Shown here: positions 3,849 through 40,654 of the stretch, in pieces
How positions within the stretch are numbered: the stretch's first letter is position 1
Layout of the letters: the number at the start of each line of letters is the position of its first letter
Virus record (IMG/VR): IMGVR_UViG_3300033997_000029
Location: 1 to 49,081 of that record
Length of the DNA: 49,081 nt
Source: a virus
Direction: 5' to 3' (one strand)
The notes under the pieces: model-generated
What the model was told of the DNA's origin: nothing
Databases searched by the model: none
The model's input: the letters and a program-made list of their open reading frames with translations, nothing else
Program-made: the position numbers and the translations under genes

Positions 3849-4841
3849 ATGAATATCAATGACGCAGATTTTGTTCTTGGTTTTGCGCGCCAGCAGTCGC
3901 ACATTCTGAATGCTCGGGTCTATGAGATTGAGTATCAGGAAATGGACTACGGCGTCCTGATCCCGGTTAACCGTAACATCCCCGAATGGGCATCCGGTAT
4001 GGATACCCTGGTGATGGATAAGGTTGGTGAAGCCAAGTTCCAGTCCACCTATGCCAAGGACGTTCCGCTGGCAGACGTGAATCTGAATATGGTTTCCAGC
4101 ACTTTTGCCGAGTATGCTGTGGGCTATCAGTGGAACATCGGTGAAGTTGGCAAGGCTGCCTTCTCTAATTTCCCGCTGAGTGCTCGACGCGCTGAGGCTG
4201 CTCGCTTTGCTGCTGAGGTGTTCGTGTGGGAAACCGCGCTGATCGGCTCTAACCTGAAGGGCTGGACCGGCCTGATTAACAACGCCAATGTGACTCCGGT
4301 TGCGGCTGCTGCTAACGGTACTGCCTCGCCGAATACCGCGTGGGTGCTGAATGACGGCACCGGCAATAAGACGCCGGAAGAGATCGTTGCCGACATTAAC
4401 AATGCCCTGATCGGCCCGGTGAACATCGGTACTGGCATCCAGACCTCAATCCTGGCGGATACCATCCTGCTTCCGGCTCTGGCGCTGAAGTACATCGAAG
4501 AGACTCCGTATGGCGTCACCTCGCCGAACGAGACTATCGCTTCGTATGTGCAGACCCGTAACGCCTATACCCGTCGCACTGGTCGTCCGCTGGTGATCCG
4601 TGAGCTTCCGGCTCTGGCGCGTGCTGCTACTGTTGGCGTTGCTGGCGGTGGCCGCATGGTTGCCTACCGCAACACTGCGGACGTGCTGGAACTGCCGATG
4701 CCGATGGACTACCGGTTCTTCCCGCTGTATCAGGACGGTCCGTTCAACTTCACCGTTCCGGGCATGGGTCGTATCGGTCAGATCGACGTGAAGAAGCCGG
4801 GTATTCGTTACCTGGATGGCATCACTCCGGTTCCGGCGTAA
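3849..4841 (+). CDS. Major capsid protein (DUF2184-type)
   Basis: 330 residues with the DUF2184 layout: an N-terminal helix (FVLGFARQQSHILNARVYEIEYQEMDYG), a central alpha domain with the ARRAEAARFAAEVFVWETAL helix, and a C-terminus ending in an MGRIGQIDVKKPGIRYLDGI strand. It is expected to adopt the HK97 fold and build the icosahedral shell. Codon use is visibly GC-biased and uniform, as expected of a highly expressed gene. It lies directly after the cement gene. Confidence 0.85.
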   Translation: MNINDADFVLGFARQQSHILNARVYEIEYQEMDYGVLIPVNRNIPEWASGMDTLVMDKVGEAKFQSTYAKDVPLADVNLNMVSSTFAEYAVGYQWNIGEVGKAAFSNFPLSARRAEAARFAAEVFVWETALIGSNLKGWTGLINNANVTPVAAAANGTASPNTAWVLNDGTGNKTPEEIVADINNALIGPVNIGTGIQTSILADTILLPALALKYIEETPYGVTSPNETIASYVQTRNAYTRRTGRPLVIRELPALARAATVGVAGGGRMVAYRNTADVLELPMPMDYRFFPLYQDGPFNFTVPGMGRIGQIDVKKPGIRYLDGITPVPA

Positions 4842-4848
4842 TCCAAAA

Positions 4849-4876
4849 GCCGGGGCGTCTTTCGGGGCGCTCCGGC
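4849..4876 (+). other. Intercistronic hairpin after major capsid gene
   Basis: A 9-bp stem GCCGGGGCG/CGCTCCGGC (one G-T pair) with a 10-base loop begins 7 bases after the capsid stop codon. There is no T tract, so it is more likely an mRNA-stabilising or attenuating hairpin than a full terminator, setting capsid expression above downstream genes. Confidence 0.5.
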
Positions 4877-4888
4877 ATAGGGGCATGA

Positions 4889-5242
4889 ATGTATACGATT
4901 AAGAACCTGACTAACTCTCCCCATCGAATTAAGACCGCTGATGGCGGATCGAAGATTCTTGGTGCGCGTGCTACTGATGAGTTTGACATTCATCCTGGCA
5001 TGGTAGGCCCGTATAGCCGACTTGGCTACTTTGTGATCACTGAGTCTAATGGTGATAGCAAGGAACTGCCTAAGCGTGAAGTAGTTAAGAATGTTCAGTT
5101 CACTGAGAAGGTTGATATCCCGAGTGAAGATGAGCAGAAAGAAGAGTTGATCGCGCAGCTTGCCGAGCTTGGCGTTAAGGCCGACAAGCGTTCGTCGGTT
5201 GAGAAGCTGCAAGAGAAGTTGGAAGAAGCACTCGCTAGTTAA
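4889..5242 (+). CDS. Head-associated hypothetical protein
   Basis: 117 residues with an N-terminal beta-rich part (MYTIKNLTNSPHRIKTADGG) and a C-terminal charged helix (EKLQEKLEEAL) resembling a HeH/LEM-type tail of phage head-joining proteins. It lies between the capsid and connector genes. An ATG 4 bases upstream is in another frame. Function not known; a head-tail joining role is inferred from position. Confidence 0.6.
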   Translation: MYTIKNLTNSPHRIKTADGGSKILGARATDEFDIHPGMVGPYSRLGYFVITESNGDSKELPKREVVKNVQFTEKVDIPSEDEQKEELIAQLAELGVKADKRSSVEKLQEKLEEALAS

Positions 5243-23592: not shown

Positions 23593-23778
23593 TCACTTGG
23601 CTAGGACGATCTTGGCGATTCGGTATGGAGGACAGCTAGCCCTATCGTTCATCCATTCTTTAGCCGAACGGGAATCCTCTCGGCTTGATCGAACGCCTCC
23701 GCGAATATCTCCTTCATTGTCCAGCACCACCCACCCAACAACATCGCCAGTCTTAGGCTTCTTCTTAGGCTTGGTCAT
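23593..23778 (-). CDS. Small basic hypothetical protein
   Basis: 61 residues, strongly basic N-terminus (MTKPKKKPKTGDVVGWVVLD). Start overlaps the preceding stop by ATGA and has AGGAAG upstream. Function not known. Confidence 0.55.
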   Translation of the reverse strand: MTKPKKKPKTGDVVGWVVLDNEGDIRGGVRSSREDSRSAKEWMNDRASCPPYRIAKIVLAK

Positions 23779-32755: not shown

Positions 32756-32937
32756 ACACAGACACGAAAGCAGTAGCCCGCGAGCTAGTAGCCTGGTTTA
32801 CCAGCGGAAATAGCGTGCCGGTGGATGTTCGGCAGACGGCTAAGGTGAGCGGAGAGCGGATCGTGGCGGATGCAGCGCGTCTCCATCGTTACATCCATGA
32901 AGATGATCGTTCTACTGACGATGTTGATAGGATTTGA
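32752..32937 (+). CDS. Small hypothetical protein
   Basis: 61 residues from GTG 32752. Helical start (KAVARELVAWFTSGNSVPVDVRQTAK) and an acidic end. Its last codons carry the -35 region of the next family promoter. Function unknown. Confidence 0.5.
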   Translation: MNTDTKAVARELVAWFTSGNSVPVDVRQTAKVSGERIVADAARLHRYIHEDDRSTDDVDRI

Positions 32938-38080: not shown

Positions 38081-38606
38081 ACGTCCAAGGGTGAGGCGAG
38101 CTAGGATAAATCTTGATTGTTGCCAAGATTGCCTTGAGAAGCTGGGGGACCATAACTGGTCTCCCAGTATGCGAGGCGAAAAAGGCAATAGACCAAGATA
38201 TATATGTAAGACATGCTGGACGAATAGACAGAAAAAGTATGAGTCTGGAAAATGCAGGATTGAGCTAAATGCTCAAAAGAATGCATTGAGAAAGGAAAGA
38301 GAGAGTAAGTGGACAGACGAGAGAAGGAATGCTGAGAAAAGGCGTAGATACAATTCTTGGCTAAAAAGAAAGTACGGAATATCAATAGATGACTATGAGT
38401 CCATGCTTTCGACTCAAGGCGGTAGTTGTAAAATATGTAAAACTACAGAGCCAAGGGGTAAGGGAACGTTCCATGTAGATCACTGCCATGGAAGCGGAAA
38501 AGTTAGGGCTTTGCTTTGTACTGAGTGCAATATGATGCTTGGCCTTGCCAAAGATAATCGTGATACATTGTTAGCCGCAATAGATTATCTTGATGAGCAC
38601 TCTTAA
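38064..38606 (+). CDS. Recombination endonuclease VII-like (freestanding homing type)
   Basis: 180 residues from ATG 38064. N-terminal CCQDC...CKTC zinc pair, a basic linker, then YGISIDDYESMLSTQGGSCKIC followed by VDHCHGSGKVRALLCTECNMMLGLAKD, the T4 Endo VII zinc-His-Me finger core. AT-richer than MazG. The region from 38607 to 39949 beyond it has no protein gene. Confidence 0.8.
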   Translation: MEKAYKRPRVRRARINLDCCQDCLEKLGDHNWSPSMRGEKGNRPRYICKTCWTNRQKKYESGKCRIELNAQKNALRKERESKWTDERRNAEKRRRYNSWLKRKYGISIDDYESMLSTQGGSCKICKTTEPRGKGTFHVDHCHGSGKVRALLCTECNMMLGLAKDNRDTLLAAIDYLDEHS

Positions 38607-38640
38607 CCAATAATGATCGTTCCACATATGCACCGCTGAG

Positions 38641-38972
38641 TCCTATGCAGCCTATTGCATAGGATTCCAGCAAGAGTAAGATTGGATTCAACAGATGTAG
38701 GCGAGCGCAGCGCCCCGGTAGTCCGGATACCTGCGAAGTCGAGCAGCCGCAGGTCTTGGCTTGACGAAACAACAGCGGCACCTAGAGCGTCGTGTAGCCT
38801 TCGGGCGTCTCCGCAGAGTGATCTAGGCGAGTAGCGACGTAATCGAGGCTGAGGGATGGGGTTGGAGATTTTGGAACCCTAACGCCATCTAGACGGTACA
38901 TGCCGCTAACGTGTATCGTAAAGTGACCCGCCAGTGGCTCTAGATGGCTTAGGGCTGCTGGCGGGGGAGATA
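38641..38972 (+). ncRNA. Large structured non-coding RNA region (ornate RNA candidate)
   Basis: No credible reading frame on either strand. Strong local pairing: 9-bp hairpin 38641-38664; CCGG-TAGT-CCGG 38715-38726; ACCTGCG/CGCAGGT 38729-38754; CCTAGA/TCTAGG 38781-38827 enclosing GCC-TTCG-GGC; and a 16-bp stem with one bulge, 38877-38893 with 38939-38954. CCCGCCAG inside that stem's loop (38927-38934) matches CTGGCGGG outside it (38958-38965), a pseudoknot signature. Large phage RNAs located beside tRNA genes (GOLLD and ROOL classes) are known, so this could be a relative or a new class. Boundaries are approximate. Confidence 0.55.
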
Positions 38973-38973
38973 T

Positions 38974-39090
38974 GGAATCATTGACGGAGTGGTTTAACGT
39001 GATCCCGTTGCAGGGATAGCGGGTAGCTTGCTCTAGCGAAGAGTTAGGGAATAACAAGTCCGCCGCAGGTTCGAATCCTGTATGATTCCG
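38974..39090 (+). ncRNA. tRNA-like RNA with 8-bp acceptor and 5-bp T stem
   Basis: GGAATCAT (38974-38981) pairs with ATGATTCC (39082-39089), and GCAGG-TTCGAAT-CCTGT forms a perfect T arm directly stacked on it. That gives a 13-bp arm as in bacterial tRNA-Sec. A D-like arm ACG-GAGTGGTTTAA-CGT follows. The next hairpin, ATCCC-GTTGCA-GGGAT, has a 6-base loop instead of 7. A 45-base multi-hairpin insert closed by GCGG/CCGC replaces the variable loop. No TCA anticodon is present. It is an aberrant tRNA or a tRNA-like domain of the larger RNA. Confidence 0.5.
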
Positions 39091-39106
39091 CTAGTGAGTT
39101 ATCGCA

Positions 39107-39207
39107 TGATGATTGGAGTATGGCGAAAGCCTAATGGTTAACTAGGGTCATGCCTAGGAAGTGGTTCAAATCCACTAGCTCAGGGATCGACGGATTCACA
39201 ATCATCA
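39107..39207 (+). ncRNA. Second tRNA-like structured RNA
   Basis: Outer stem TGATGATTG/CAATCATCA (39107-39115 with 39199-39207). Inside: GGC-GAAA-GCC (39122-39131), CTAGG-GTCATG-CCTAG (39142-39157) with another 6-base loop, and AGTGG-TTCAAAT-CCACT (39160-39176), a T-arm look-alike. The 22 bases between that arm and the outer stem rule out a normal tRNA. Function unknown. Confidence 0.4.
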
Positions 39208-39226
39208 GCCGATAGTTCATTTGAAG

Positions 39227-39365
39227 TGTTGTTTGTAGTGGAGAATGCGCAGGTAGTGACTGCGAATCACTGGGGTATATCACGGCGGTGCGCACCGCCC
39301 CCTGAGCAGGCCGAAAGGTCAACGTGATAAGCCGGGATCACCTCCGGCCTCCACTACAAACAGCA
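39227..39365 (+). ncRNA. Structured RNA displaying a 16S anti-Shine-Dalgarno-like loop
   Basis: Closing stem of at least 14 perfect pairs (39230-39243 with 39349-39362). Inner hairpins: CGCAG-GTAGTGA-CTGCG (39248-39264); stem TATCACG/CGTGATA (39278-39284, 39323-39329) enclosing GGCGGT-GCGC-ACCGCC and GGCC-GAAA-GGTC; then GCCGG-GATCACCT-CCGGC (39331-39348). That last loop contains GGATCACCTCC, identical to the 3' end of bacterial 16S rRNA before its final bases. Ends 4 bases before tRNA-Ser, so it may be released by tRNA processing. Confidence 0.5.
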
Positions 39366-39369
39366 TTTA

Positions 39370-39455
39370 GGGTCTACGCGCACAGGGTGCAAACTGGCCT
39401 TGAAAGCCAGGCTATCCAGAGATGGATAACTGTTCGATTCAGTGTAGGCCCGCCA
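39370..39455 (+). tRNA. tRNA-Ser(TGA)
   Basis: Acceptor GGGTCTA/TAGGCCC, anticodon arm CTGGC-CTTGAAA-GCCAG with anticodon TGA, long class II variable arm (GCTATCCAGAGATGGATAA), T loop TTCGATT, G73 and encoded CCA. The D arm is odd: GCAC-AGG-GTGC has a 3-base loop. Confidence 0.8.
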
Positions 39456-39461
39456 AGTTTC

Positions 39462-39533
39462 GACGGAGTAGTGTAATTGGCAGCATAGCGAACTCCAAAT
39501 TCGCCGGTGTTGGTTCGAGTCCAACCTTCGTTG
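39462..39533 (+). tRNA. tRNA-Trp(CCA)
   Basis: Acceptor GACGGAG/CTTCGTT with G73, D loop containing AATTGG, anticodon arm GCGAA-CTCCAAA-TTCGC (anticodon CCA), T arm GTTGG-TTCGAGT-CCAAC. CCA is not encoded. Confidence 0.85.
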
Positions 39534-39542
39534 ATAGTTTGA

Positions 39543-39616
39543 TGCGACATAGCTCAATGGTAGAGCAACCCGCTTTGACCGGGTTTACCTAGGTTCGATT
39601 CCTAGTGTCGCTGCCA
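39543..39616 (+). tRNA. tRNA-Gln(TTG)
   Basis: Acceptor TGCGACA/TGTCGCT with an open 1-72 pair, as is tolerated in Gln tRNAs; D arm GCTC/GAGC; anticodon arm ACCCG-CTTTGAC-CGGGT (anticodon TTG); T arm CTAGG-TTCGATT-CCTAG; G73 and encoded CCA. Confidence 0.88.
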
Positions 39617-39620
39617 CATT

Positions 39621-39694
39621 GCGAGCTTGGCCGAATGGTTAGGCACTAGGCTTCCAACCTAGCTACAGGGTTTCGATTACCCTAGCTCGCTCCA
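39621..39694 (+). tRNA. tRNA-Gly(TCC)
   Basis: Acceptor GCGAGCT/AGCTCGC; D arm GCC-GAATGGTTA-GGC; anticodon arm CTAGG-CTTCCAA-CCTAG (anticodon TCC); T arm AGGGT-TTCGATT-ACCCT; T73 and encoded CCA. Confidence 0.9.
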
Positions 39695-39698
39695 CATT

Positions 39699-39771
39699 GC
39701 CGGAATAGCACAATTGGTAGTGCGCTGGATTTGTAATTCAGAGGTTGTAGGTTCGAGACCTACTTTCGGCA
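39699..39771 (+). tRNA. tRNA-Thr(TGT)
   Basis: Acceptor GCCGGAA/TTTCGGC; D arm GCAC-AATTGGTA-GTGC; anticodon arm CTGGA-TTTGTAA-TTCAG (anticodon TGT); T arm GTAGG-TTCGAGA-CCTAC; A73. CCA is not encoded. Confidence 0.9.
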
Positions 39772-39777
39772 CAAAAT

Positions 39778-39852
39778 GCGAATGTGATGGGAATTGGTAT
39801 ACCTGCTTGGATTAGACCCAAGCGCTTCCCGGTTCGAGTCCGGGCATTCGTA
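39778..39852 (+). tRNA. tRNA-Leu(TAG), short variable loop
   Basis: Acceptor GCGAATG/CATTCGT; D loop with AATTGG; anticodon arm CTTGG-ATTAGAC-CCAAG (anticodon TAG, reads CUA); T arm CCCGG-TTCGAGT-CCGGG; A73, no CCA. The variable loop is only about 5 bases, unlike the long arm expected of leucine tRNAs, and the D stem is weak. Confidence 0.8.
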
Positions 39853-39858
39853 CAAAAT

Positions 39859-39934
39859 GGCGCTGTATCGGTCTTGGTTTCTACCCAAGTAGCCGTAGAG
39901 GATTACGGGGGTTCGAATCCCTCCAGCACCTCCA
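39859..39934 (+). tRNA. D-arm-less tRNA-like gene, possible tRNA-Arg(TCT)
   Basis: Acceptor GGCGCTG/CAGCACC (one mismatch), anticodon arm CTTGG-TTTCTAC-CCAAG with the same stem as the preceding tRNA-Leu (anticodon TCT), a 5-bp variable hairpin CCGTA-GAGGAT-TACGG, T arm GGGGG-TTCGAAT-CCCTC, T73 and encoded CCA. Only seven bases separate acceptor and anticodon stem, so no D arm can form in this folding. An alternative folding uses GGT...ACC as a D arm, leaving a 6-base anticodon-like loop. Confidence 0.6.
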
Positions 39935-39949
39935 ATACGTTGGTATAAA

Positions 39950-40504
39950 ATGGAAAGCGTTGAAGAAGAAATTAAGAGACTTCTTTCATATGATCCGGAG
40001 ACTGGAATCATCTCATGGATAGTTCCAAGAAATGGCGTTAGGCTTAGTAAGATTGCTGGGCATGAGCGCAACAAACTTGCCGCAAACGCTAACGGATATA
40101 TAAGAATAATGGTAAATTGGAAGTCATACTATGCGCATAGACTTGCATGGCTTATTTATTATTGGGATTGGCCAGAGGGTCAGATAGACCATATTGACGG
40201 CGACCGAAGGAATAATAAGATTTCAAATCTTAGGGATGTAAGTCCAGCACAGAACGCTCAAAACAATAGGAAGGCGAATAGCAATAGGGAGCTTACATCG
40301 AGTCATCTTGGAGTTTCTTTTCATAAGAAAACTGGAAAATGGTTAGCTGCGATAAAAGCAAATGGAAAGCTTTTCCCGCTTGGATACTTTGATGATGAGC
40401 AATTGGCGGCCAATGCATATATGGAAGCCAAGAAAGTTCATCACACACTTAGTCCCGATGGTATGCCCCTTGCAATAGACTATCGGACTGGATACTATGA
40501 TTGA
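39950..40504 (+). CDS. HNH homing endonuclease with AP2 domain, beside tRNA array
   Basis: 184 residues. HNH core: YYAHRLAWLIYYWDWPEGQIDHIDGDRRNNKISNLRDVS (residues about 62-100). AP2-like domain: SSHLGVSFHKKTGKWLAAIKANGKLFPLGYFDDEQLAANAYMEAKK (about 121-166). AT-rich. Closely similar in plan to 15441-15983. Position right after the tRNA array suggests it helped mobilise that region. Confidence 0.82.
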   Translation: MESVEEEIKRLLSYDPETGIISWIVPRNGVRLSKIAGHERNKLAANANGYIRIMVNWKSYYAHRLAWLIYYWDWPEGQIDHIDGDRRNNKISNLRDVSPAQNAQNNRKANSNRELTSSHLGVSFHKKTGKWLAAIKANGKLFPLGYFDDEQLAANAYMEAKKVHHTLSPDGMPLAIDYRTGYYD

Positions 40505-40582: not shown

Positions 40583-40619
40583 GACCCGAAGACCTCATCC
40601 CCCTTCGGGTCTTTTTTTT
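40583..40619 (+). terminator. Strong intrinsic terminator
   Basis: Stem GACCCGAAG/CTTCGGGTC (40583-40591, 40603-40611) with eight T after it. It ends the tRNA/HNH transcript. A second hairpin, CCGGTG/CACCGG, lies about 50 bases upstream. Confidence 0.92.
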
Positions 40620-40654
40620 GCTCGACGCCCATCGTTCCATCCATGAACTCGATT

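Follow-up and report, generated by a model that had tools for sequence, protein, structure and literature searches.

The DNA between positions 38690 and 39372 is a real and so far unannotated structured RNA region of this phage, composite and modular in its organization. One of its modules belongs to a scaffold family that is new to Rfam 15, and its core relates to the known family Proteo-phage-1. The window is the whole stretch of DNA that was analysed (49,081 nt, IMG/VR record IMGVR_UViG_3300033997_000029). An earlier note had read positions 38607-39365 as possibly one giant non-coding RNA upstream of the tRNA genes. The region 38690-39372 folds at -278.1 kcal/mol, compared with -238.8 ± 7.9 for dinucleotide shuffles (z = -4.97; 0/40 shuffles as low). 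Considered by part against dinucleotide shuffles, z is -1.9 for 38690-38972, -3.1 for 38974-39096, -4.63 for 39098-39216 and -4.57 for 39226-39376; twelve 283-nt control segments from the same phage range from -2.4 to +1.4. The perfect stems listed in the earlier note are found in both the sequence and the fold where it had placed them, and it was also right about the lack of a protein gene: the antisense ORFs of 38607-39365 gave no PHROG match, and a protein-coding reading was therefore rejected. Its borders have to be shifted at both ends. The structured part extends past 39365 to about 39450 and there takes in another unrecognised tRNA-like element. From 38690 onward the proposed span stands as structured RNA, but its opening 80 bases (38607-38689) make better sense as a DNA promoter element than as RNA, and the first 9-bp stem is a dyad inside that element.

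The region seems to stand at the head of a tRNA operon with the following parts.

38614 to 38682, plus strand: phage promoter/operator element with a ATCGTTCCA box and the dyad TCCTATGCA/TGCATAGGA at 38641-38664 (9 bp)
38655 to 38660 and 38677 to 38682, plus strand: promoter boxes, -35-like TTGCAT and -10-like TAAGAT, separated by 16 bp, with a predicted start at about 38690
39461 to 39853, plus strand: tRNA array Trp, Gln, Gly, Thr, Leu (ARAGORN and RF00005)
39859 to 39931, plus strand: further weak tRNA (RF00005 32.7 bits; ARAGORN makes no call)
39950 to 40504, plus strand: HNH/AP2 homing-type endonuclease ORF after the array (PF13392, PF00847)
40583 to 40619, plus strand: putative intrinsic terminator GACCCGAAG..CTTCGGGTC-T8, recognised by sequence, its 11-nt loop lying beyond the loop limit of the terminator scan

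The box ATCGTTCYA occurs in the window at 32906, 38616 and 40631 on the plus strand and at 23593 on the minus strand, where 0.47 occurrences are expected. A common layout is shared by the three plus-strand copies and the relatives: the box, a second box or dyad, TTGATA/TTGCAT, a spacer of 16-17 bp and TAATCT/TAAGAT. The repeated element probably marks several transcription units under a phage regulator; it often comes with a 21-bp direct repeat ATCGTTCYA. The next promoter copy begins at 40631, after the terminator. Because the region lies between one promoter and one terminator, a single primary transcript is likely, and a transcription unit that comprises the RNA, the tRNAs and the HNH ORF is the most likely arrangement. 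A role of the core in late-gene antitermination is not supported in this phage, given the promoter copy after the terminator.

The first module of the predicted transcript is a pseudoknotted RNA block.

38697 to 38783, plus strand: Proteo-phage-1-like core (RF03044 sub-threshold match, our own model and covariation)
38706-38710/38731-38735, plus strand: core helix P1, enclosing an inner hairpin (38715-38718/38723-38726)
38736-38743/38755-38762, plus strand: core helix P2, its loop engaged in the pseudoknot 38746-38750/38775-38779
38784 to 38926, plus strand: variable middle domain of the core's RNA block (alignment of six phages)
38927 to 38965, plus strand: closing hairpin of the block, nearly invariant, CCCGCCAG..CTGGCGGG, about 17 pairs in the fold

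Six matches in the whole 49-kb window reach the Rfam gathering cut-off, all of them tRNA and none of any other family. A lax search over 38400-40000 gave a sub-threshold Proteo-phage-1 match at 38700-38783. With RF03044 the window scores 22.9 bits; at the homologous place SOVA965 reaches 34.7 bits and Silvergun 25.6, all three below the gathering cut-off of 42. Across 12 relatives, P1, the inner hairpin, P2 and the pseudoknot are paired in 93.6% of cells, against 77.3% after shuffling. Double changes affect 10 of the 22 pairs (6.7 in shuffles; 3/500 shuffles as high), and the covariation score is 0.400 (0.118 shuffled; slid controls ≤ 0.043). P1, the inner hairpin and P2 are each paired in 98-100% of cells, with double changes in every one of them. 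The pseudoknot proposed in the earlier note, GCCGC 38746-38750 with GCGGC 38775-38779, covaries as well, being GCCAG/CTGGC in S72; its partner is missing from the aligned columns in 3/12 relatives, where a possible partner lies further on. Our own model, built from Pseudomonas-type loci only, gave E-values, themselves rough, of 0.001 in two of the relatives' loci (L005 and L016) and 0.1 in the window. In model R1, RNAalifold took the pseudoknot helix and not P2, so this model is weaker than it could be. Since the helices covary, the model matches and the Rfam score stays below the cut-off, 38697-38965 appears to be a divergent relative of Proteo-phage-1 and not a formal member.

The pseudoknot-core pattern was found in 108 viral contigs and several Pseudomonas genomes, and eight loci tested from it score 65-82 bits with RF03044. 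Proteo-phage-1-type RNA occurs in more than 60 non-redundant phage and prophage loci, mostly of Pseudomonas. In Pseudomonas phages the RNA lies before a terminator, and between its last hairpin and the terminator there may be an optional cassette of tRNAs, tRNA-like pieces or the kissing-arm scaffold described below. A tRNA lies within 0.8-1 kb in 13 of 69 non-redundant loci (19%; background 5/142), and a tRNA, T arm or scaffold is near the RNA in 20 of the 69. The closing hairpin is similar to the 3' hairpin, GCCAGTG..CTCTGGCGGG, that Proteo-phage-1 loci have in Pseudomonas phages; its own exact pattern is present in 8 IMG/VR contigs, every one from the present phage group, and in none of the genome collection.

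Downstream of this block, 38974-39215 appears from its sequence to hold two degenerate tRNA-like cassettes, and a third tRNA-like element follows just before the array.

38974 to 39089, plus strand: candidate tRNA-like cassette 1, with an acceptor-like helix GGAATCAT/ATGATTCC (8 bp) and a T arm at 39065-39081 (fold z -3.1)
39099 to 39215, plus strand: candidate tRNA-like cassette 2, with a helix TTATCG..CGATAG and the stem GATGATTG/CAATCATC inside (fold z -4.63)
39371 to 39450, plus strand: tRNA-Ser(UGA)-like element with a 3-nt D loop and a T arm at 39429, by sequence

Cassette 2 also has a GAAA-capped D-like arm, a 6-nt anticodon-like loop and a T arm at 39160-39176. Neither ARAGORN nor RF00005 calls a tRNA among the cassettes and the element at 38974-39450, in which the T arms alone can be recognised. 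These three unaccepted elements (T arms at 39065, 39160 and 39429) have shortened D loops, 6-nt anticodon-like loops and long variable arms. When T-arm hairpins are defined as a stem of at least four pairs plus TTCRANN, nine are found on the plus strand at 39065-39923 and only one other on the plus strand of the 49 kb. In relatives the conserved cassette helices enclose different inserts, of which one (L009, L012) is a tRNA shape that lacks an anticodon loop. The element at 39371-39450 is conserved in several relatives and is 78.7% identical in ctpbd312, an otherwise unrelated phage.

Between the cassettes and this element lies the module that we call the kissing-arm scaffold (element D).

39224 to 39368, plus strand: kissing-arm scaffold, with closing helix 39224-39243/39349-39368 (20 bp counting G-U pairs)
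39248 to 39264 and 39331 to 39348, plus strand: scaffold arms HP1 (loop GTAGTGA) and HP2 (loop GATCACCT), the latter flush on the closing helix
39265 to 39330, plus strand: scaffold insert, 66 nt

The two strands of the closing helix change together in relatives, from TGTTTGTAGTGG/CCACTACAAACA to TGTTTGCAGTGG/CCACTGCAAACA. The loops of the two arms are complementary, in the window over 4 bp only (GTGA 39256-39259 with TCAC 39338-39341), and they vary elsewhere yet stay complementary (GCTGA:TCAGC, TGGTGA:TCACCA and GTGGT:ACCAC). Pairing between them is therefore probable and would lock the fold.

The most frequent arm sequence, AATGCGYAGGCTGATGCG, is present in at least 120 viral contigs. Of 120 non-redundant occurrences among the matches listed, 87 show a hairpin followed flush by a helix of 7 bp or more; exchanging the upstream arms among loci leaves 5.5%. 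In 78 of these 87 the hairpin loop contains TCAGC, which is complementary to the first loop, though the search did not demand it. Two descriptor scans gave 112 matches against 5 in shuffles (loop pairing of at least 5 bp: 93 against 0) and 121 against 2, respectively; relaxed matches without the AATGC start (L014, L020, the second L279 match and others) were taken as chance. Covariation over 50 members is 0.345 against 0.103 shuffled, a count that is partly built in because the search pattern fixed HP1 and its loop and the detector demanded pairing; the arm-swap test is for that reason the fairer and least biased one. The covariation of the loop pairing itself rests on few independent types; the pattern searches started from one loop type. 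Neither the window nor the loci scanned gave a match of the scaffold to any family in Rfam 15, and a literature search on the scaffold itself returned nothing relevant.

The contents of the scaffold are highly diverse. Inserts range from 26 to 162 nt, and 96 distinct ones fall into 75 clusters; a few inserts are common to scaffolds of different loop type (L004, L243). Altogether at least about 100 copies were found in phages of Pseudomonas, xanthomonads and Enterobacteriaceae, and the inserts they carry are of about 75 types unrelated to one another. In some copies the insert is a tRNA or part of one (L323 and L025; also L343, which failed the strict test). One insert (L231 3701-3779, minus strand) resembles a hammerhead ribozyme, CTGATGAG..GAAAC, with 28.2 bits for RF02275, below the cut-off.

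The scaffold is also found in well-known genomes. Phage P1 (L348, with a scaffold at 2501-2640) carries two copies. One immediately follows tRNA-Asn and tRNA-Thr; the other has diverged, and both of its arms show compensatory changes (GCACA/TGTGC and GTCGG/CCGAC). Of 5426 complete E. coli genomes, 840 (about 15%, or one in seven) contain the P1-type scaffold in prophages, with no annotated feature there among the matches listed. In Enterobacter phage CobraSix a scaffold-like element follows Q and tRNA-Arg and precedes the holin. Further helix-bounded cassettes, CAACAGGTAAGRG..CTTACCGTTGTG, lie beside the scaffolds of P1 (about 2420-2740 and 3120-3200 of L348), one of them with a tRNA T arm.

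Eight IMG/VR contigs contain the region, complete or in part, as do ten isolated phages of Stenotrophomonas, Xanthomonas and Acinetobacter; the Stenotrophomonas phages CUB19 and S72 are cultured relatives. A search for distant phages through the neighbouring 135-aa protein returned the same group and two weak loci only. In annotated relatives the region is followed by tRNAs and then by an endolysin gene. Compensatory changes preserve the stems in relatives. The earlier note had named the lack of such changes as grounds for refutation, and its reading as structured non-coding RNA beside tRNA genes is thus supported. Alignments of the relatives show a fixed frame with exchangeable contents. For instance, the module 39224-39368 is exactly missing from L015, an ORF (4703-5232) takes the place of the Proteo-phage-1-like core in L013, and another ORF is inserted between promoter and core (Kintu; L003 4098-4319). 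In Silvergun, the middle domain contains a 126-nt tRNA match (L006 4300-4425; RF00005 39.2 bits). The arrays of L005, L006, L011, L013 and L016 have recurring structured modules between tRNAs, such as CATGGTAAGTGTCGCGGGCAGCAACC..CACCATGA and CACCTGTNTA.GCAGGTCGCCAAT..GCCGGATGGATGTARCCGGCA, and those of L012 and L015 have tRNA-Gly-like elements with the T loops AGCGTTA or ATCGTTA replacing TTCRANN.

We suggest that a phage tRNA operon begins with this region as its non-coding head. Its transcript would run from the promoter at 38614-38682 through the pseudoknot RNA, the two cassettes, the scaffold and the tRNAs to the terminator. The scaffold would copy the tRNA plan: its closing helix resembles the acceptor and is followed by a short AAT linker and a D-like arm, a variable region takes the place of the anticodon arm, and the T-like arm stacks directly on the closing helix. 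The insert may then be a cargo swapped among phages. Folded like a tRNA and possibly released by processing, the scaffold would protect and present a small RNA acting in trans by base pairing, as the prophage sRNA STnc100 does; alternatively, the cargo may be a decoy directed at a host factor that recognises RNAs folded like tRNA. That this phage has one transcription unit in which a tRNA-shaped scaffold displays an exchangeable small RNA or decoy seems to us slightly on the probable side. For the broader proposal, namely a widespread tRNA-shaped phage scaffold family, closed by loop-loop contact, with a swappable insert, with STnc100-type sRNAs as one branch and serving as a general sRNA or decoy chassis, we hold the case evenly balanced.

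We favour the sRNA or decoy chassis over the reading that comes next, a role in processing or as a leader, which we consider unlikely. Here the core and cassettes would act in cis, either helping RNA polymerase to traverse a long untranslated tRNA operon or serving as sites that RNase P and other tRNA enzymes recognise when they cut the precursor; the inserts would be tolerated passengers. The tRNA-like 3' element of MALAT1 is a comparable case for recognition by tRNA enzymes. Consistent with such a role, the core begins where transcription of the operon is predicted to start, the core of Pseudomonas phages is followed by a tRNA, tRNA-like piece or scaffold and then by a terminator, and the CobraSix element between Q and holin occupies a late-leader position. 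However, tRNAs and terminators are absent from the vicinity of most scaffold copies, and several copies lie directly before a ribosome-binding site. Moreover, the downstream genes are served by their own promoter copy at 40631, and any antitermination role would therefore be limited to the operon.

A further reading takes the region for degenerate remains, that is, tRNA genes that decayed and palindromes left by recombination or homing endonucleases at a tRNA hot spot, with no RNA function. Two homing-type endonuclease ORFs do flank the array, and the tRNA-like elements make poor tRNAs. Decay would not, however, keep closing helices, arm stems and loop pairings intact through compensatory changes across phages, and this covariation renders the reading improbable. 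Weakest of all is the view that the whole 0.7 kb is one cage-assembling RNA of the GOLLD or ROOL kind, classes that the earlier note had named, with tRNAs in a linker: its size, its place beside tRNA genes, the tRNA within the block of Silvergun and the tRNAs sometimes carried by GOLLD linkers would suit it, but neither family matches over 38400-40000 even at E up to 5 and the modules are gained and lost independently among relatives and occur alone elsewhere, so that we regard it as very improbable.

One RNA layout with hypervariable contents thus recurs in phages of many Gammaproteobacteria, unannotated in phage P1 and, among the matches listed, in the complete E. coli genomes that carry it. 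It connects two unexplained families, Proteo-phage-1 and STnc100, with tRNA arrays and with the late region. Should the cargo prove to be a decoy or regulator, it would form a modular layer of phage counter-defence or control that protein-based annotation has missed. As P1 and laboratory E. coli carry the scaffold, its role is directly testable.

Among known systems, GOLLD and ROOL are likewise large phage RNAs near tRNA genes; GOLLD linkers hold tRNAs at times, and both RNAs form cages (PMC12286853). The present region differs in being modular rather than one conserved domain and in giving no match to their covariance models. Proteo-phage-1 (RF03044) shares with the core a P1 with an inner hairpin, a P2 whose loop pairs downstream in a pseudoknot, a GAAA-N-AAC-type motif ahead of the pseudoknot partner and the location in phages. 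In contrast, the core here falls below the Rfam cut-off, and the region adds an extra middle domain, a dedicated promoter and downstream tRNA-like cassettes; the 82-nt Rfam model excludes the tRNA and cassette neighbourhood. STnc100 (RF02076) shares the plan of the scaffold, judging by one printed consensus: a closing helix UGGUG/CACCA, an AAU linker, an arm, an insert and an arm flush on the helix. The scaffold has other arm stems and loops and different inserts, and the STnc100 covariance model finds nothing in the window even at E-values as high as 5; an element beside the scaffolds of P1 matches it at 33.9 bits, below the cut-off of 47. Unlike STnc100-type sRNAs, whose hallmarks are Hfq binding, base pairing and a terminator of their own, the scaffold of the window lies inside an operon with no terminator of its own directly after it. 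Copies of STnc100 are transcribed in EHEC, one of them being seen on a Northern blot (PMC5331693), and PasD and STnc100 are reported to have a common ancestor (PMC13192938); the Pas sRNA preprint was rejected as a source of the same element, the two being linked through STnc100 only. The scaffold resembles tRNA in its acceptor helix, its D-like arm, its variable region and a T-like arm flush on the acceptor, and its complementary loops recall the interacting D and T loops of tRNA. It differs from tRNA in having no anticodon arm, in an insert that reaches 162 nt and in loops that are complementary over 4-7 bp instead of making the canonical GG/TTC contacts.
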